From: Prevotella sp.
GTDB lineage: Bacteria > Bacteroidota > Bacteroidia > Bacteroidales > Bacteroidaceae
NCBI GenBank assembly: GCA_017619755.1
Contig: JAFZRU010000035.1
Span: forward strand, 1-64,000
Reading direction: 5' to 3'
Length of the DNA: 64,000 nucleotides
Shown here: positions 40,063 through 44,982 of the stretch, in pieces
Numbering within the stretch: the first letter of the stretch is position 1
How the letters are laid out: each line of letters starts with the position of its first letter
The notes under the pieces: model-generated
What the model saw: the letters and a program-made list of their open reading frames with translations, nothing else
Database searches by the model: none
Told to the model about the DNA's origin: nothing
Translations under genes and position numbers: made by a program

Positions 40063-41475
40063 ATGAAACAAAAACCCATGCTTCTCTGGGAAAAATGCCT
40101 CAGGCTCATCAAGGCCAACGTTACAGAGCAGCAATTCAAAACATGGTTCGAGCCCATCGTCTTCGAGGCCTATTCACCGGCCACGATGACCATTGTGGTA
40201 AAGGTACCCAGCCCATTCGTGTATGAGTACCTGGAGGAGAACTTTGTTGACTTGATAGGAAAGGTTCTTAAAAGGGAATTTGGACAAGGGGTCAAACTGG
40301 CATACAAAATCGTCACTGACAAAACCAACGACAAAGACATGGTGGTGGAGTCTGACAACACTGAGGACAGTATTGAGAAGCCACTCCCAAGAACCAGGGC
40401 CAACCAGTCGTACACCGCCCTCGACGCTGCACAGCCACAACCCATCGACTCACAGCTCAACCCTCTGCAGACTTTTGAGAATTTCATTGAAGGGGTCAGC
40501 AACAAACTCCCAAGGGCTGTAGGCCTGTCAATAGCGGCAAATCCCTCTTCCACACAGTTCAACCCCATGTTTGTCTTCGGCCCATCAGGGTGTGGAAAGA
40601 CACACCTCATCAACGCCATCGGAGTGAGGGTGAAGAATATCTTCCCGCAAAAAAGGGTGCTGTATGTAAGTGCAAGACTCTTCCAGGTGCAATACACCAA
40701 TGCTGTGAGATACAACACGCTCAACGATTTCATCAATTTCTACCAAACCATCGACGTGCTCATCGTTGACGACATACAGGAGTGGATGACAGCCACCAAG
40801 ACACAGGACACGTTCTTCCATATCTTCGACCATCTCTTCAGAAACGGTAAGAGAATCATTCTGGCATGCGACAGACCGCCCGTTGACCTCAAGGGAATGA
40901 ACGAGAGACTCGTCACGAGGTTCTCATGCGGACTGATTGCAGAACTCGAAAGACCCGACTTCCAACTGTGCGTGGACATTCTCACCGCAAAAGTCAAGCA
41001 TGACGGGCTCGACATTCCTCACGACGTGGTGTGCTACATCGCGGAAAATGCCAATGGAAGCGTCAGAGACTTGGAGGGAGTTGTCAATTCTCTCATGGCA
41101 TATTCCATCGTCTATAACAAAAAAATCGACATGGAATTTACGGAGAGCATCCTGAAAAGGTCTGTCAAGATGGACAACCACCCACTTACTGTCGATGATA
41201 TCGTTGACAAGGTGTGCGATTTCTACCAAGTCTCTCCAGAGGAGGTAGGTGGAAAAAGCAGGAAGAGAAACCTTGTACTGGCAAGGCAGGTCTCCATGTA
41301 TCTCGCTCAAAAGCATACAAGAATGCCGGCGGCAAGGATTGGAAAACTCATTGCCGGCAGAGATCATTCCACCGTCCTGCACAGTTGTGAGAAAGTGGAG
41401 GAAAAAATAAAAACCGACAATAAATTCTCCGAAGAAATAGCTTTGATAGAAAATTCGTTCAAACTAAAAAAATAA
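40063..41475 (+). CDS. dnaA: Chromosomal replication initiator DnaA
   Basis: The 470-residue initiator has an N-terminal interaction domain (about 1-85, starting with LLWEKCLRLIKANVTEQQF), a variable linker, and the AAA+ domain with Walker A GPSGCGKT (173-180) and Walker B LIVDDIQ (233-239). The C-terminal DNA-binding domain carries the DnaA signature (AGRDHSTVLHSCEKV). It is monocistronic: a promoter with an inverted repeat lies upstream and a strong terminator 20 bp downstream. The usual partner dnaN is absent, which is common in Bacteroidetes. Confidence 0.98.
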   Translation: MKQKPMLLWEKCLRLIKANVTEQQFKTWFEPIVFEAYSPATMTIVVKVPSPFVYEYLEENFVDLIGKVLKREFGQGVKLAYKIVTDKTNDKDMVVESDNTEDSIEKPLPRTRANQSYTALDAAQPQPIDSQLNPLQTFENFIEGVSNKLPRAVGLSIAANPSSTQFNPMFVFGPSGCGKTHLINAIGVRVKNIFPQKRVLYVSARLFQVQYTNAVRYNTLNDFINFYQTIDVLIVDDIQEWMTATKTQDTFFHIFDHLFRNGKRIILACDRPPVDLKGMNERLVTRFSCGLIAELERPDFQLCVDILTAKVKHDGLDIPHDVVCYIAENANGSVRDLEGVVNSLMAYSIVYNKKIDMEFTESILKRSVKMDNHPLTVDDIVDKVCDFYQVSPEEVGGKSRKRNLVLARQVSMYLAQKHTRMPAARIGKLIAGRDHSTVLHSCEKVEEKIKTDNKFSEEIALIENSFKLKK

Positions 41476-41495
41476 CTTACGCACTATTGCTTCAG

Positions 41496-41526
41496 AGGGG
41501 GGATGCAGGGATGCATCCTCCTTTTT
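41496..41526 (+). terminator. dnaA terminator
   Basis: The stem GGATGCA-GGGA-TGCATCC (41501-41518), extended by further G-C/G-T pairs, is followed by CTTTTT on the plus strand. Confidence 0.8.
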
Positions 41527-41529
41527 CGA

Positions 41530-41740
41530 TGGGCCTTTCGATGGGCCTATGAATCAACATACACCGAGTCTCACGACCCAGTGCATGCCTATAACTTACT
41601 ATAATTAATTAACTCAAAGATGTCGACTCTCTCGAGGGGACTTAACCTCACAAATGTGAGGTTTAGCGAAAATTATTATTGTCTTTGTCTAAATCGCTTG
41701 CCGTTTTGAGGGTTGATATTACAATCAATTTCAAAATGCT
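41530..41740 (-). ncRNA. Candidate structured non-coding RNA downstream of dnaA
   Basis: A full promoter points into 377 bp that has no gene. On the minus strand the predicted RNA contains a 9-bp hairpin at 41583-41562 whose loop is GUGA, a GNRA tetraloop. Two of its pairs are G-U on this strand and would be A-C mismatches on the other, so the signal is strand-specific. It also contains the perfect hairpin AACCTCACA/TGTGAGGTT (41663-41644) and AGCGA/TCGCU and CTCAAA/TTTGAG pairings. The 3' end is not defined, and 41530 is a working limit before the dnaA terminator. I could not match it to a known RNA family. Confidence 0.4.
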
Positions 41741-41743
41741 ATG

Positions 41744-41775
41744 CAAAGTTACATTTTTTTTCCCACTTTGACAAA
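41744..41775 (-). promoter_or_regulatory. Promoter for the candidate RNA
   Basis: On the minus strand, TTTG at 41775-41772, exactly 20 nt, and TAACTTTG at 41751-41744. Start near 41740. It lies downstream of the pnuT stop codon and faces the 3' end of dnaA, so no protein gene explains it. Confidence 0.55.
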
Positions 41776-41852
41776 ATATCTATCACTTTACTTGCCAAAT
41801 AAATGTTTTTTAACATTCGTGTGCGTACACAAATTTATTATATGCTTTTTTT

Positions 41853-42458
41853 CTATGTTTTTTTGTGATTTTCATCCTCTTTCATCATCAAACGCCATTT
41901 CCTGTAGCCAAAAATGGCAATGAGGGTGTAGAGGCCATATAAGCTCGCCTTGAAGGGGATGTCCTTGTAAAAATACAACGCACAAGTCACCACATCGACG
42001 CCAATCCAGATGAGCCATTGTTCCAAATATTTCCTTGCAAGCGCCCAGATACCAACAAAACTCAACGCCGTGGTGAAACTATCGGCAACAGGAACGCGTG
42101 AATCGGTTTGGGTGACAAGCAACCACCATATTCCACCCCAAAGGGCAAGTGTGGCGATTATCCAAGGCAAAATGAGGCTCGACTTGAAATGAGTGATAGG
42201 GAGTTCTGAGTGACCGGTTTTACCTCCTTTTGTGTATTTCCAGGTGATGAAGCCGTAAATGGTCATGCTGATGTAATAGAACTCCATTCCACAATCAGCG
42301 TAGAGGCCATGGTTGTAGTAAAGCACGATGTCCAAAGCTTGCATCAGAAAGCCCACGATCCACAGCCAGATGTTTGCCTTGTATTCCAAGAGGATGTAGG
42401 CAAGCCCCAGCAGCGTGGTGGTGATGTCAAGCCAGTGGTCGATGATGAAGGAGTTCAT
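41853..42458 (-). CDS. pnuT: Thiamine transporter PnuT (PnuC family)
   Basis: A 201-residue membrane protein of the PnuC family with about seven hydrophobic segments and the family motif region WLWIVGFLMQALDIVLYY. PnuC proteins move vitamins by facilitated diffusion coupled to phosphorylation. Here the gene is second in an operon led by a TPP riboswitch and follows a TonB receptor gene by 7 bp. That context identifies the thiamine-specific branch (PnuT) rather than the nicotinamide riboside transporter. A thiamine pyrophosphokinase gene is often the third member but is absent here. Confidence 0.87.
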   Translation of the reverse strand: MNSFIIDHWLDITTTLLGLAYILLEYKANIWLWIVGFLMQALDIVLYYNHGLYADCGMEFYYISMTIYGFITWKYTKGGKTGHSELPITHFKSSLILPWIIATLALWGGIWWLLVTQTDSRVPVADSFTTALSFVGIWALARKYLEQWLIWIGVDVVTCALYFYKDIPFKASLYGLYTLIAIFGYRKWRLMMKEDENHKKT

Positions 42459-42465
42459 GGTGGAT

Positions 42466-44844
42466 TCAGAATTTCAATGTGATGTTGCACATCGCCGTGA
42501 AGCCGGCCATGGGAATGTAACCAATTTGATAGTAGCGGTTGTCGTTGCTGTGGCCATAACTCTCGCAGATGGCGGAATACACCCATCCACTGCCTGCATA
42601 ACGACGTCCGAAGATGTTGTTGAGGTTCATTCCCACTTTCACTTCCTTCATGCCCAAGGCCTTGGTCACCTTGAAGGTTCGGTTGATGGAGAAATTGGAG
42701 GTGCTATAGCAGGGCAGCGAACGCTCGCTGTTCTCTGTGTTGTCGAGATATTGGCGGCTCACGAAGTTGGTGTGCCATGTGGCTTGCCACCCTTTGTGTT
42801 GGATGTGAATGAGGCCGTTGAGGATGGTGGAGGGAGAGAAAGCGAGCGTGGAGTTGTTGTAATGGATGATGCGTTCGCCATTGTCCCAGTCTTCCACCAC
42901 CTCGTCGAAATCTTTGATGGTATTCTTGCTAAATGCGGCATTGCCACCCACCGTCAGCCAGGAAAACGGCGACCACGAGACTTCCAACTCCACGCCGGCA
43001 CGGTAGGAATCCTTGACGTTGGTCGTCAGGGCCTCGCCAATGTCGCTCACCGCACCTGTCCGCACAAACTGGTCGGTGTAGTCCATATAGTAGAAATTCA
43101 CACCGGCACGAAAGGAATTCCCAATGAAGTTGTACCCTAATTCGTAGTCTAAGAGTTTCTCCGCACGGGGGAAGGGGTAGCTGCCGTTGTCGGTGAAGTT
43201 GTTGCGCTCTGGCTCGCGGTGGCTTGTGGCTATCGAGGCGTAAAGGTGATGACGCTCCGTCTTGTAACTCAGGCCGCCTTTGAGATTAGCGAAGTCATAC
43301 TGTTGGTCGATGTCTATACGTTGGTTGGTGTAGCTCCCGTCGTCGTTGGCATAAAACTTGTCGTTGATGCCGTCAGTCTGGTAATTGACGTGGCGATATT
43401 GCACATCGCCGAAGACACTGAGGTGGGGGAGGATGATCCAAGCTCCCTTCACGTAGCCGCTGTAGTCATCTTTGTTCGCATCGGAGTCGTAATACTTGTA
43501 ATCGCTATTGTTCAGTATCATTTTCGACAGTTCGCTGTTGCTACAATAGGTCAGGTAACCGAAATGGTTGGCATCAAACTGCTGCAGCGACATGCCTCCG
43601 GCAATATCCCAACGCTCGTCTTTATAGTTGGCGTTCCACACGATGCCGTAGGTGTCCTGGCTCAAGCCTTTCTTTCGGATGAAGTCGGAACGTTTCACCT
43701 TCTCGCCTTGGCTGTTGGTGAAGGTGGCAAGTCCAAACTTGCTCAACTTGTTGTTTGGCCGAAACTCGTTATAGTAGCCATATCCGTGGGTATAGTGTAA
43801 AGAGGCACTGGCTTTCCAATGCTCGGAGATGTCCCACGAGGCGGAGGCGATGTTGTGGCTCTGCCAGAAATTGTCAGTGGCCTTCTTCCAAAGGCTGCCG
43901 TCAGACATGGTGTAACGCTGCGTCAGGTAATTGCCTTTGGCATCTTGGGCGAAGTTGCCGGAGGCGTCGTAGGCAAGTGTCTCATAGAGAGTGTTGTATC
44001 GTCCAAGGCCGACCTCGTAAAGGTCTTTGTAGGAGTGGATGCCTGTATGGGAGCCGTAGGTGCCGTCCATCAGCGAGAGGTCGTTGTCGCCAGCTGTCAC
44101 GCCGTTCCATGCCTGCCCAGTCTTCTCGAAGTTGCCGAAATTCTTGTAACTTACTTGAAAGCGTGGGCCAAGGTAACGTAGGCCGCCGTAGTAGCTGCCA
44201 GAGCGACCGGAGGTTCCGTGGAGATAGCCATCGGTGTTGGTCTCGTGATAAGCCCCATCGAGCACCAGATGGTCCCACAGCAGACCGGAGGAGAAGGAGC
44301 CACCCACGTTAAAGGTGTTGTAGGAGCCGTAGGAACCACTTATTTCCGCGTAGGGAGTGGGCGATGCCGCCTTGGAGAGCAAGGAGATGGTGCCGCCGAA
44401 CGCGCCGTCGCCATTGGTCGATGAGCCAACACCACGTTGGATTTGCACACTGCCCAAGAGAGATGAGTAACTGTTCATGTTGGCCCAGAACACGCATTGG
44501 TCTTCGGGGGAGTTGAGTGGCACACCGTCGAGTGTTACGTTGATGCGGGAGTCACCGGAACCGCGAATGCGCATGTAGACAGTGCCGGTGCCAAGGCCGT
44601 TCTCGCTCCAAGAAAGCACGCCGGGGGTCTGTGAGAAGAGGAAGGGCAGTTCCTTGCCGGTCTTGGAAAATTCCTGCAAATCGGCTTTGTCTATCTTCGT
44701 GATGGCATACGGCGCATTTTGCTGGGCTTGCACGCCTTTCACCACCACTTCCTGCAACTGCTCCATACGAAGCGAGTCAACGGACTGTGCGCTGACGCCT
44801 GCTGCAAGAGGCAGCAAGATACATGTGATAATTGTTCTTTTCAT
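42466..44844 (-). CDS. TonB-dependent receptor, probably for thiamine
   Basis: A 792-residue outer-membrane receptor with signal peptide (1-19, ...GVSAQ) and a plug (about 35-150, with MRIRGSGDSRINVTLDGVPLNSPED and QIQRGVGSSTNGDGAFGGTISL). A 22-strand type barrel ends ...AMCNITLKF. It is the first gene of the TPP-riboswitch operon and is followed by pnuT. This matches the omr1-pnuT arrangement predicted for Bacteroidetes thiamine uptake. The transported form (thiamine, phosphate ester or a precursor) cannot be told from sequence. Confidence 0.9.
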   Translation of the reverse strand: MKRTIITCILLPLAAGVSAQSVDSLRMEQLQEVVVKGVQAQQNAPYAITKIDKADLQEFSKTGKELPFLFSQTPGVLSWSENGLGTGTVYMRIRGSGDSRINVTLDGVPLNSPEDQCVFWANMNSYSSLLGSVQIQRGVGSSTNGDGAFGGTISLLSKAASPTPYAEISGSYGSYNTFNVGGSFSSGLLWDHLVLDGAYHETNTDGYLHGTSGRSGSYYGGLRYLGPRFQVSYKNFGNFEKTGQAWNGVTAGDNDLSLMDGTYGSHTGIHSYKDLYEVGLGRYNTLYETLAYDASGNFAQDAKGNYLTQRYTMSDGSLWKKATDNFWQSHNIASASWDISEHWKASASLHYTHGYGYYNEFRPNNKLSKFGLATFTNSQGEKVKRSDFIRKKGLSQDTYGIVWNANYKDERWDIAGGMSLQQFDANHFGYLTYCSNSELSKMILNNSDYKYYDSDANKDDYSGYVKGAWIILPHLSVFGDVQYRHVNYQTDGINDKFYANDDGSYTNQRIDIDQQYDFANLKGGLSYKTERHHLYASIATSHREPERNNFTDNGSYPFPRAEKLLDYELGYNFIGNSFRAGVNFYYMDYTDQFVRTGAVSDIGEALTTNVKDSYRAGVELEVSWSPFSWLTVGGNAAFSKNTIKDFDEVVEDWDNGERIIHYNNSTLAFSPSTILNGLIHIQHKGWQATWHTNFVSRQYLDNTENSERSLPCYSTSNFSINRTFKVTKALGMKEVKVGMNLNNIFGRRYAGSGWVYSAICESYGHSNDNRYYQIGYIPMAGFTAMCNITLKF

Positions 44845-44850
44845 TTCTTA

Positions 44851-44960
44851 CCTTATTAAAAATACAATAAGGGGGTGGAGAGTGTATTTTCCCTACGCCG
44901 GCATTACCCGGATCAGGTCAGAGGGTCTGATCTCAGCCCGAAACATCGGGCACCCCTTAA
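44851..44960 (-). promoter_or_regulatory. TPP riboswitch (THI element) with start-site hairpin
   Basis: The minus strand shows the conserved THI-box words in order: GGGGTGC (44956-44950), CTGAGAT, ACCTGATCCGGGTAATGCC and GCGTAGGGAA (to 44889). Downstream, CCTTATT (44872-44866) can pair with AATAAGG (44857-44851) just before the ATG at 44844. The sequence CACCCCCTTA can instead pair with TAAGGGGTG at the 5' edge of the aptamer. This suggests translational repression when TPP is bound. Confidence 0.95.
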
Positions 44961-44982
44961 CTTGCTCCTTGCAAGTCGGATG

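Follow-up and report, generated by a model that had tools for sequence, protein, structure and literature searches.

The 64,000-nt stretch of Prevotella sp. DNA analysed here (the window) belongs to a 3.7-Mb draft genome that is 86% complete. On its plus strand, dnaA (40063..41475; TIGR00362, E 1.5e-133) is followed by a terminator hairpin and a T-run (41495..41526; sequence and predicted fold). An operon on the minus strand converges on dnaA and has the order TPP riboswitch (44873..44967; RF00059, 68.2 bits), TonB-dependent receptor (42466..44844; PF07715), which is the operon's first gene and is OMthi by context, and pnuT (41853..42458; PnuC family, PF04973 E 9.7e-52, TIGR01528; thiamine transport by context). 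According to passages of PMC5613172, OMthi, pnuT, and tnr3 lie mostly in one thiamine-uptake operon in gut Bacteroidetes. Between the stop codons of dnaA (41475) and pnuT (41853) lies the 377-bp gap in which a sequence-only reading had placed an undescribed small RNA with a minus-strand promoter at 41744-41775. Both gap and promoter are present, the latter read from the sequence as TTTG at 41775-41772, a 20-nt spacer, and TAACTTTG at 41751-41744. From the promoter position, a terminator-like hairpin, and a conservation drop at 41551, we infer a minus-strand sRNA of approximately 190 nt (41550..41738), with its 5' end near 41738 and its 3' end near 41550.

Several shorter sequences flank the predicted sRNA. 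Just 5' of the -33 box, GTGATAGAT (41778..41786, minus) is kept in close relatives as judged by eye, and conservation at 41791-41772 is 0.82. The interval between pnuT and the sRNA promoter holds the palindrome TGTG-TACG-CACA (41820..41831, unstranded), a possible regulator site. A TGTG...ACA-type match occurs in 9 of 20 loci, and in G087, G225, and G073 the palindrome appears by eye to be doubled in an inverted form. A stricter pattern had no copy in the source genome, and it misses the window's own site as well, owing to one extra base. On the other side, the short direct repeat TTTCGATGGGCC (41527-41549) lies in the spacer that separates the sRNA end from the dnaA terminator, and in its place the nearest relative, the rumen MAG RUG13814 (L032; dnaA 96% identical), carries other short repeats of the CGTTAT type.

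Three hairpins were modelled in the transcript. The first, hp1 (41644..41663), pairs 41656-41663 with 41644-41651 in 8 bp around a 4-nt loop; hp2 (41622..41641) reads GUC-CC-CUC-GAGA-GAG-UC-GAC; and hp3 (41556..41589), judged from its sequence the presumed intrinsic terminator, joins 41575-41589 to 41556-41570 in 15 bp, with five G-U pairs and a GUGA loop at 41571-41574. The sequence-only reading had rightly seen a GUGA hairpin with G-U pairs and a second hairpin nearer the 5' end, though it gave both stems 9 bp, and the former two G-U pairs; hp2, between them, was absent from it. A U-rich tract follows hp3 in many homologues but is weak in the window and the members nearest to it. The linker AGUUAAUUAAUUAUAGUAAGUUAUA (41590..41614, minus) is the most conserved part, with AGUUA-UU invariant in 24 sequences, and is a candidate seed or protein site; its mean predicted unpaired probability is 0.35-0.47, and hence it is not clearly single-stranded. 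RNAalifold on alignment A1 suggested a possible long-range pairing whose 5' half is CAAAGA (41682..41687, minus) and whose partner is UCUUUG at 41615-41620, which is weakly supported, no pair showing a both-sided change on A1. This outer pairing and a linker stem, UAAUUUA/UAAGUUA, were kept out of the covariance model R2 described below because both had little independent support; the linker stem is also broken in the window itself.

When 60 relatives were searched by DNA similarity, the hits beyond the element's own locus were all short, and many covered some 20 nt at the promoter. The homologues were instead reached via dnaA by reading downstream from it in 80 named loci and 30 from whole genomes (own included). 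The relatives sampled bear the names Prevotella or Prevotellaceae (some are now Hoylesella, Xylanibacter, and others), and the genus in our counts is a database grouping taken as Prevotella in the broad sense. The motif GACATCTTTGAGTTAATT, with up to three errors, was found in 11 of 93 distinct 900-nt stretches downstream of dnaA. A covariance model from 11 members (R1) found more distant members, and a second from 24 members (R2) was used for counting. At E <=0.01, R2 matched 89 of the 249 genomes of the genus in two score groups, 20 genomes scoring at least 81.8 bits and the rest at most 56.2 bits. Two of the latter, G193 (56.2 bits) and G216 (55.3 bits), are also members by position and layout, bringing the family to 22 of 249 sampled genomes, or about one in eleven. 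The training set of R2 includes 14 of the 20 top genomes; G203, G167, G207, G195, G183, and G150 were found independently of it, as were G193 and G216. Matches of 31-51 bits (67 further genomes of the genus and 12 of an order sample) were not counted as family, and the 11 lower R2 or R1 matches inspected were other sRNA-like elements or chance-like.

In the order sample of 295 genomes, R2 found nothing above 44 bits outside the own genome. Within strict filters, this sampling, and incomplete genomes, the family looks confined to the genus by sequence. No copy was recognised in 227 of the 249 genomes, indicating that the sRNA is not generally required. The own genome, at 86% completeness, yielded one match up to E 10, indicating that the element is not a dispersed repeat. 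Phage and plasmid collections gave no match to it, and dnaA was not found in viral contigs; a 15-nt pattern sought in viral contigs was unspecific among the matches listed and was left unused. Pairwise identity in six close genomes was 0.78-0.98 over 41691-41552, exceeding most of the pnuT end (0.60-0.83 over 42071-41872, 0.35 in the outermost alignment bin, and 0.29 in the last codons), with 0.59-0.71 for the 5' portion of the predicted RNA (41751-41692). At the predicted 3' end conservation breaks off sharply, to 0.02-0.54 beyond 41551.

The covariance test that the sequence-only reading had proposed was run on these homologues, and compensatory changes were found, supporting a structured, strand-specific RNA. 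In alignment A3 (24 homologues aligned with MAFFT from sequence only), the three hairpins had standard pairs in 90.7% of their cells, compared with 74.1% in shuffled and at most 45.2% in slid controls. At least one both-sided change occurred in 19 of 24 pairs (6 of 7 scored pairs in hp1, 3 of 6 in hp2, and 10 of 11 in hp3), against a shuffled mean of 10.8. None of 500 shuffles reached any of five covariation measures, whose values can be inflated by relatedness and refer to a structure chosen from the same sequences; the slid controls retain the relatedness yet score far below A3. In the 11 closest sequences alone, both-sided changes were present in 8 of 32 pairs. A further alignment, A2, was fitted to R1, and its very high scores are not our main evidence.

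The same alignment bears on the strand. Its paired cells comprised 460 Watson-Crick, 54 G-U, 13 A-C, 40 other, and 9 gapped cells. Because a G-U pair becomes A-C on the opposite strand, the excess of 54 over 13 implies that the minus strand is the RNA, which bears out the same argument as made from the window's hairpin in the sequence-only reading. Folding z-scores for 41476-41743 were -5.36 on the minus strand and -4.77 on the plus strand, where the dnaA terminator lies; restricted to the 140-nt element, they were -4.43 and -3.08 (60 shuffles). Folded singly, most members were in agreement, but three of 20 folded poorly (G024, G183, and G150, with z of -2.11, -1.63, and -0.73). The opposite strand had the lower energy in 4 of 20 and the better z-score in 7 of 20, so that single-sequence folding alone cannot fix the strand. 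The promoter pattern TTG, 19-23 nt, TAnnTTTG, defined after the homologue sequences had been inspected, preceded the element in 22 of 22 homologues, compared with 0 of 22 on the opposite strand and 1.5% of doublet-shuffled controls. Taken together, the original observation was confirmed on stronger evidence than had been claimed for it, and, judged from these sequence comparisons, 41550-41738 on the minus strand is very probably transcribed as an sRNA.

With Rfam 15, the TPP riboswitch was the sole gathering-level match in the whole window. Between 41400 and 41900, six matches up to E 10 were obtained, of which the best had E 0.31 and fell well short of its gathering score, and in 15 of 20 chosen loci the search at E up to 0.05 found none. 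The sRNA thus looks uncatalogued so far, with no matching family in Rfam 15. Titles and abstracts of the literature on Prevotella sRNAs and on dnaA-linked and pnuT-linked RNAs contained no recognisable description of the element. A survey of structured RNAs in the human microbiome reports Prevotella motifs near uvrC in passages of PMC8040213; its main text contains no mention of dnaA, thiamine, or pnu. A simple ORF listing of 20 members gave no reading frame running through the whole family, and several members had none at all. A 21-codon ATG frame of the MVVKTTLK type (M-VKTTLK--SDLDKDNNNFR) was found in the 5' half in G225, G073, and G087 (L113, L114, and L115) but not in the window; hp3 itself contains a 10-codon frame in 6 of 20 members. 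The best reading of the sequence is an independently transcribed sRNA of approximately 190 nt that is new to Rfam.

Part of the linker, GUUAAUUUA-UUUUAGUAAG, recurred in other sRNA-like elements, before the terminators of other transcripts. With up to two mismatches, GGTTAATTTAGTTTTAGTAAG was found 17 times in 15 of 60 genomes and the reversed pattern not at all; 5 of these matches carry two mismatches and may represent something different. In the own genome, the module pattern gave no match with up to three mismatches, and the backward control gave one. A second conserved Prevotella sRNA-like element, family B, has the linker module and the terminator loop in common with the sRNA. It was recognised at 13 loci (L277, L275, L283, L284, L289, L290, L292, L293, L295-L298, and L300) after one locus without the pattern was set aside from 14 chosen for inspection. 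Family B combines a promoter-like sequence of its own with a U-rich stretch that contains GUGGUUAAUUUAGUUUUAGUAAG; the loop of its terminator is of the UCGUGAGA type. At 9 of the 13 loci it lies directly behind homologues of one protein gene on the same strand (45-59% identical to the L289 protein over the aligned parts), and at a tenth, L297, the same gene lies on its far side. This neighbour is probably an outer-membrane beta-barrel gene, to judge from one weak, sub-cut-off Pfam match in four fragments. Against the FopS model, family B scored 23.2 bits (cut-off 56, E 0.084), and unrelated families score similarly.

Further elements were observed alongside. UUGAGUUAAUUU immediately precedes a terminator-like hairpin at three further sites in G006 and at one in G195; at the G006 loci L376, L389, and L395 the hairpin is preceded by CTTGAGTTAATTTG, and at L391 in G195 by TTTGAGTTAATTTT. 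A third long, well-conserved element, GTCAAAAGGTTAATAGATTGTTTTAGGTTAGTAG..., with promoter-like and terminator-like ends, was seen in four genomes (L270, L271, L274, and L276). It was weakly caught by R1, and its L271 copy had no Rfam match up to E 0.05.

As to function, we consider it rather probable that the element is a free-standing sRNA gene with its own promoter, most likely acting in trans by base pairing via the linker. On this account, the Bacteroidota-type promoter behind pnuT would start the sRNA, and the transcript would fold into hp1, hp2, and the AU-rich conserved linker before stopping at the hp3 terminator, short of dnaA. Pairing would most likely use the linker stretch GAGUUAAUUUA-UUUUAGUAAG as the seed; the targets are perhaps mRNAs of envelope or uptake functions, and the position behind thiamine-uptake genes may couple the level of the sRNA to them. 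That the linker may pair with mRNAs is suggested by analogy with FopS, GibS, and BatR, as portrayed in passages of PMC11697453 and PMC10861873.

Targeting of SusC mRNAs in the manner of FopS was examined and rejected. The start regions of SusC genes (27 of 37 own-genome matches above the family cut-off, with the most upstream ATG taken as the start) gave -9.76 kcal/mol with the real linker and -10.14 kcal/mol with the shuffled one, and other window genes gave -8.30 kcal/mol. The real linker was no better than its letter-shuffled versions, indicating that composition explains the apparent complementarity to SusC. The family-B stretch likewise gave -15.43 (real) and -16.05 (shuffled) against SusC starts. 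Exact 12-mer complements of the linker in 20 genomes numbered 24, of which 15 were the sRNA itself and 9 were others, compared with 8 in the control, which is chance level.

These searches, yielding no target by complementarity in SusC starts or 12-mers, fit the main rival, in which the RNA acts by protein binding: its GNGA-capped hairpins and U/A-rich linker would be binding sites, and the RNA would be a sponge or scaffold for a partner such as an RRM protein of the RbpB type. The recurrence of the linker before terminators of unrelated transcripts also favours this view, as do the hairpin loops, which by eye read G-N-G-A in hp2 of all 24 aligned sequences and in hp3 of the aligned members. 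However, GNGA is also the commonest GNRA-type loop group among terminator-like hairpins at loci L032-L141 (12 of 102, GNAA 0), a sample that includes the sRNAs themselves. We regard protein binding as the sole mode of action as improbable, at roughly one chance in five.

A constant feature of the sRNA gene is what precedes it. The modelled element begins 59-271 nt beyond a pnuT match of the same orientation in 20 of 20 genomes, and in G193 and G216 tnr3 (thiamine diphosphokinase; TIGR01378, E 1.5e-38 and 9.1e-37) lies between pnuT and the element. The thiamine-uptake genes are thus its constant partner: all 22 members follow pnuT or pnuT-tnr3. Among 36 distinct dnaA loci with pnuT (44 of the 110 loci fetched, less duplicates weeded out by hand), 20 hold the element, always between the two genes; in 7 of the 16 without it, the gap is just 62-165 nt, too short for the element. 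At L078, another of these 16, an apparent 5' half of the element lies behind tnr3. This same-strand association would also be expected if the element were the structured 3' end of the pnuT operon, either a 3' UTR element or a 3' UTR-derived sRNA, dependent on the TPP riboswitch and with an incidental promoter. A well-spaced promoter nevertheless lies directly before the element throughout the family, at a frequency far above that of shuffled controls, and identity falls to 0.16 just after pnuT (41851-41832) before returning to 0.53-0.82 towards the -33 box (0.47 in the spacer). An origin in the pnuT operon transcript therefore appears unlikely, holding perhaps one chance in eight. The first frame after the element is opposed in 19 of 20 genomes and runs in the same direction in one (G006), where a leader role is formally conceivable.

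The association with dnaA is looser. The gene lies within the 1.5-kb flank of the element in 13 of 20 genomes, and in the other 7 of 20 different reading frames are found there instead; all 20 have it convergent and downstream on the element's contig, at distances of up to 12.3 kb, and in G193 and G216 (2 of 22) it is on another contig than the element. The sequence-only reading had proposed that the RNA runs towards the 3' end of dnaA and controls it in antisense, and both the convergent arrangement and the existence of an antisense RNA for dnaA in B. subtilis (PMC12112137) speak for this. In the window, however, the terminator is predicted to end near 41552, 77 nt past the dnaA stop, with the dnaA terminator in between, and by sequence prediction the sRNA (end 41550) does not overlap the dnaA transcript (terminator 41495-41526). 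The spacer is not conserved, being unrelated sequence in L032, and synteny with pnuT, directly or through tnr3 in every member, is steadier than with dnaA. On the predicted terminator, spacer, and synteny, we rejected dnaA antisense control, to which we assign a very small probability. Equally improbable is a DNA element (a repeat, replication, or integration site), for which the nearness of dnaA and the inverted repeats could be cited, against the G-U over A-C bias, the promoter, the compensatory changes, and the single copy.

Regulatory RNAs of the Bacteroidota are known mainly from Bacteroides thetaiotaomicron. The sRNA resembles FopS and GibS of Bacteroides (RF04319 and RF04182; passages of PMC11697453) in its Bacteroidota promoter, in a conserved AU-rich segment followed by a terminator hairpin whose loop is GUGA-like (Rfam consensus), and in belonging to a set of sRNAs with a stretch in common. 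FopS is described in the same passages as an RNA of about 65-70 nt with a 5' single-stranded seed and 14 members in one genome; in contrast, the Prevotella sRNA is approximately 190 nt long, has two extra hairpins in its 5' half, and occurs in one copy, and neither the FopS nor the GibS model was among the six Rfam matches at 41400-41900. BatR of Bacteroides, as described in passages of PMC10861873, is a 154-nt sRNA with a structured 5' part, a stretch turning single-stranded, and a terminator; it represses surface-related genes, and the likeness is one of description, from passages that deal with Bacteroides species. EcpR1 of Sinorhizobium (PMC4414408) and the B. subtilis dnaA antisense RNA are small RNAs tied to the cell cycle or dnaA. 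Unlike them, the Prevotella sRNA has no overlap or demonstrated pairing with dnaA. The TPP riboswitch heads the operon before the sRNA, and the sRNA itself does not match RF00059.

On sequence grounds, the element is a new sRNA family of a known general type, the bacterial intergenic sRNA, with a possible wider network around it. Tentatively, and at about one chance in four, Prevotella may possess a network of sRNAs behind uptake or outer-membrane genes that carry a common 3' module, GUUAAUUUA-UUUUAGUAAG with a GNGA-capped terminator. If so, its members would include the sRNA behind the thiamine operon and family B behind the beta-barrel-like gene, and the module would be a common recognition site, for mRNA targets or for an RNA-binding protein, coupling several surface systems. 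The clear structure, promoter, and fixed neighbour make the element a concrete entry point to sRNA in Prevotella; the partner operon suggests thiamine as a growth condition, and the module found also in other sRNA-like elements brings the hunt for targets or a protein partner within reach.
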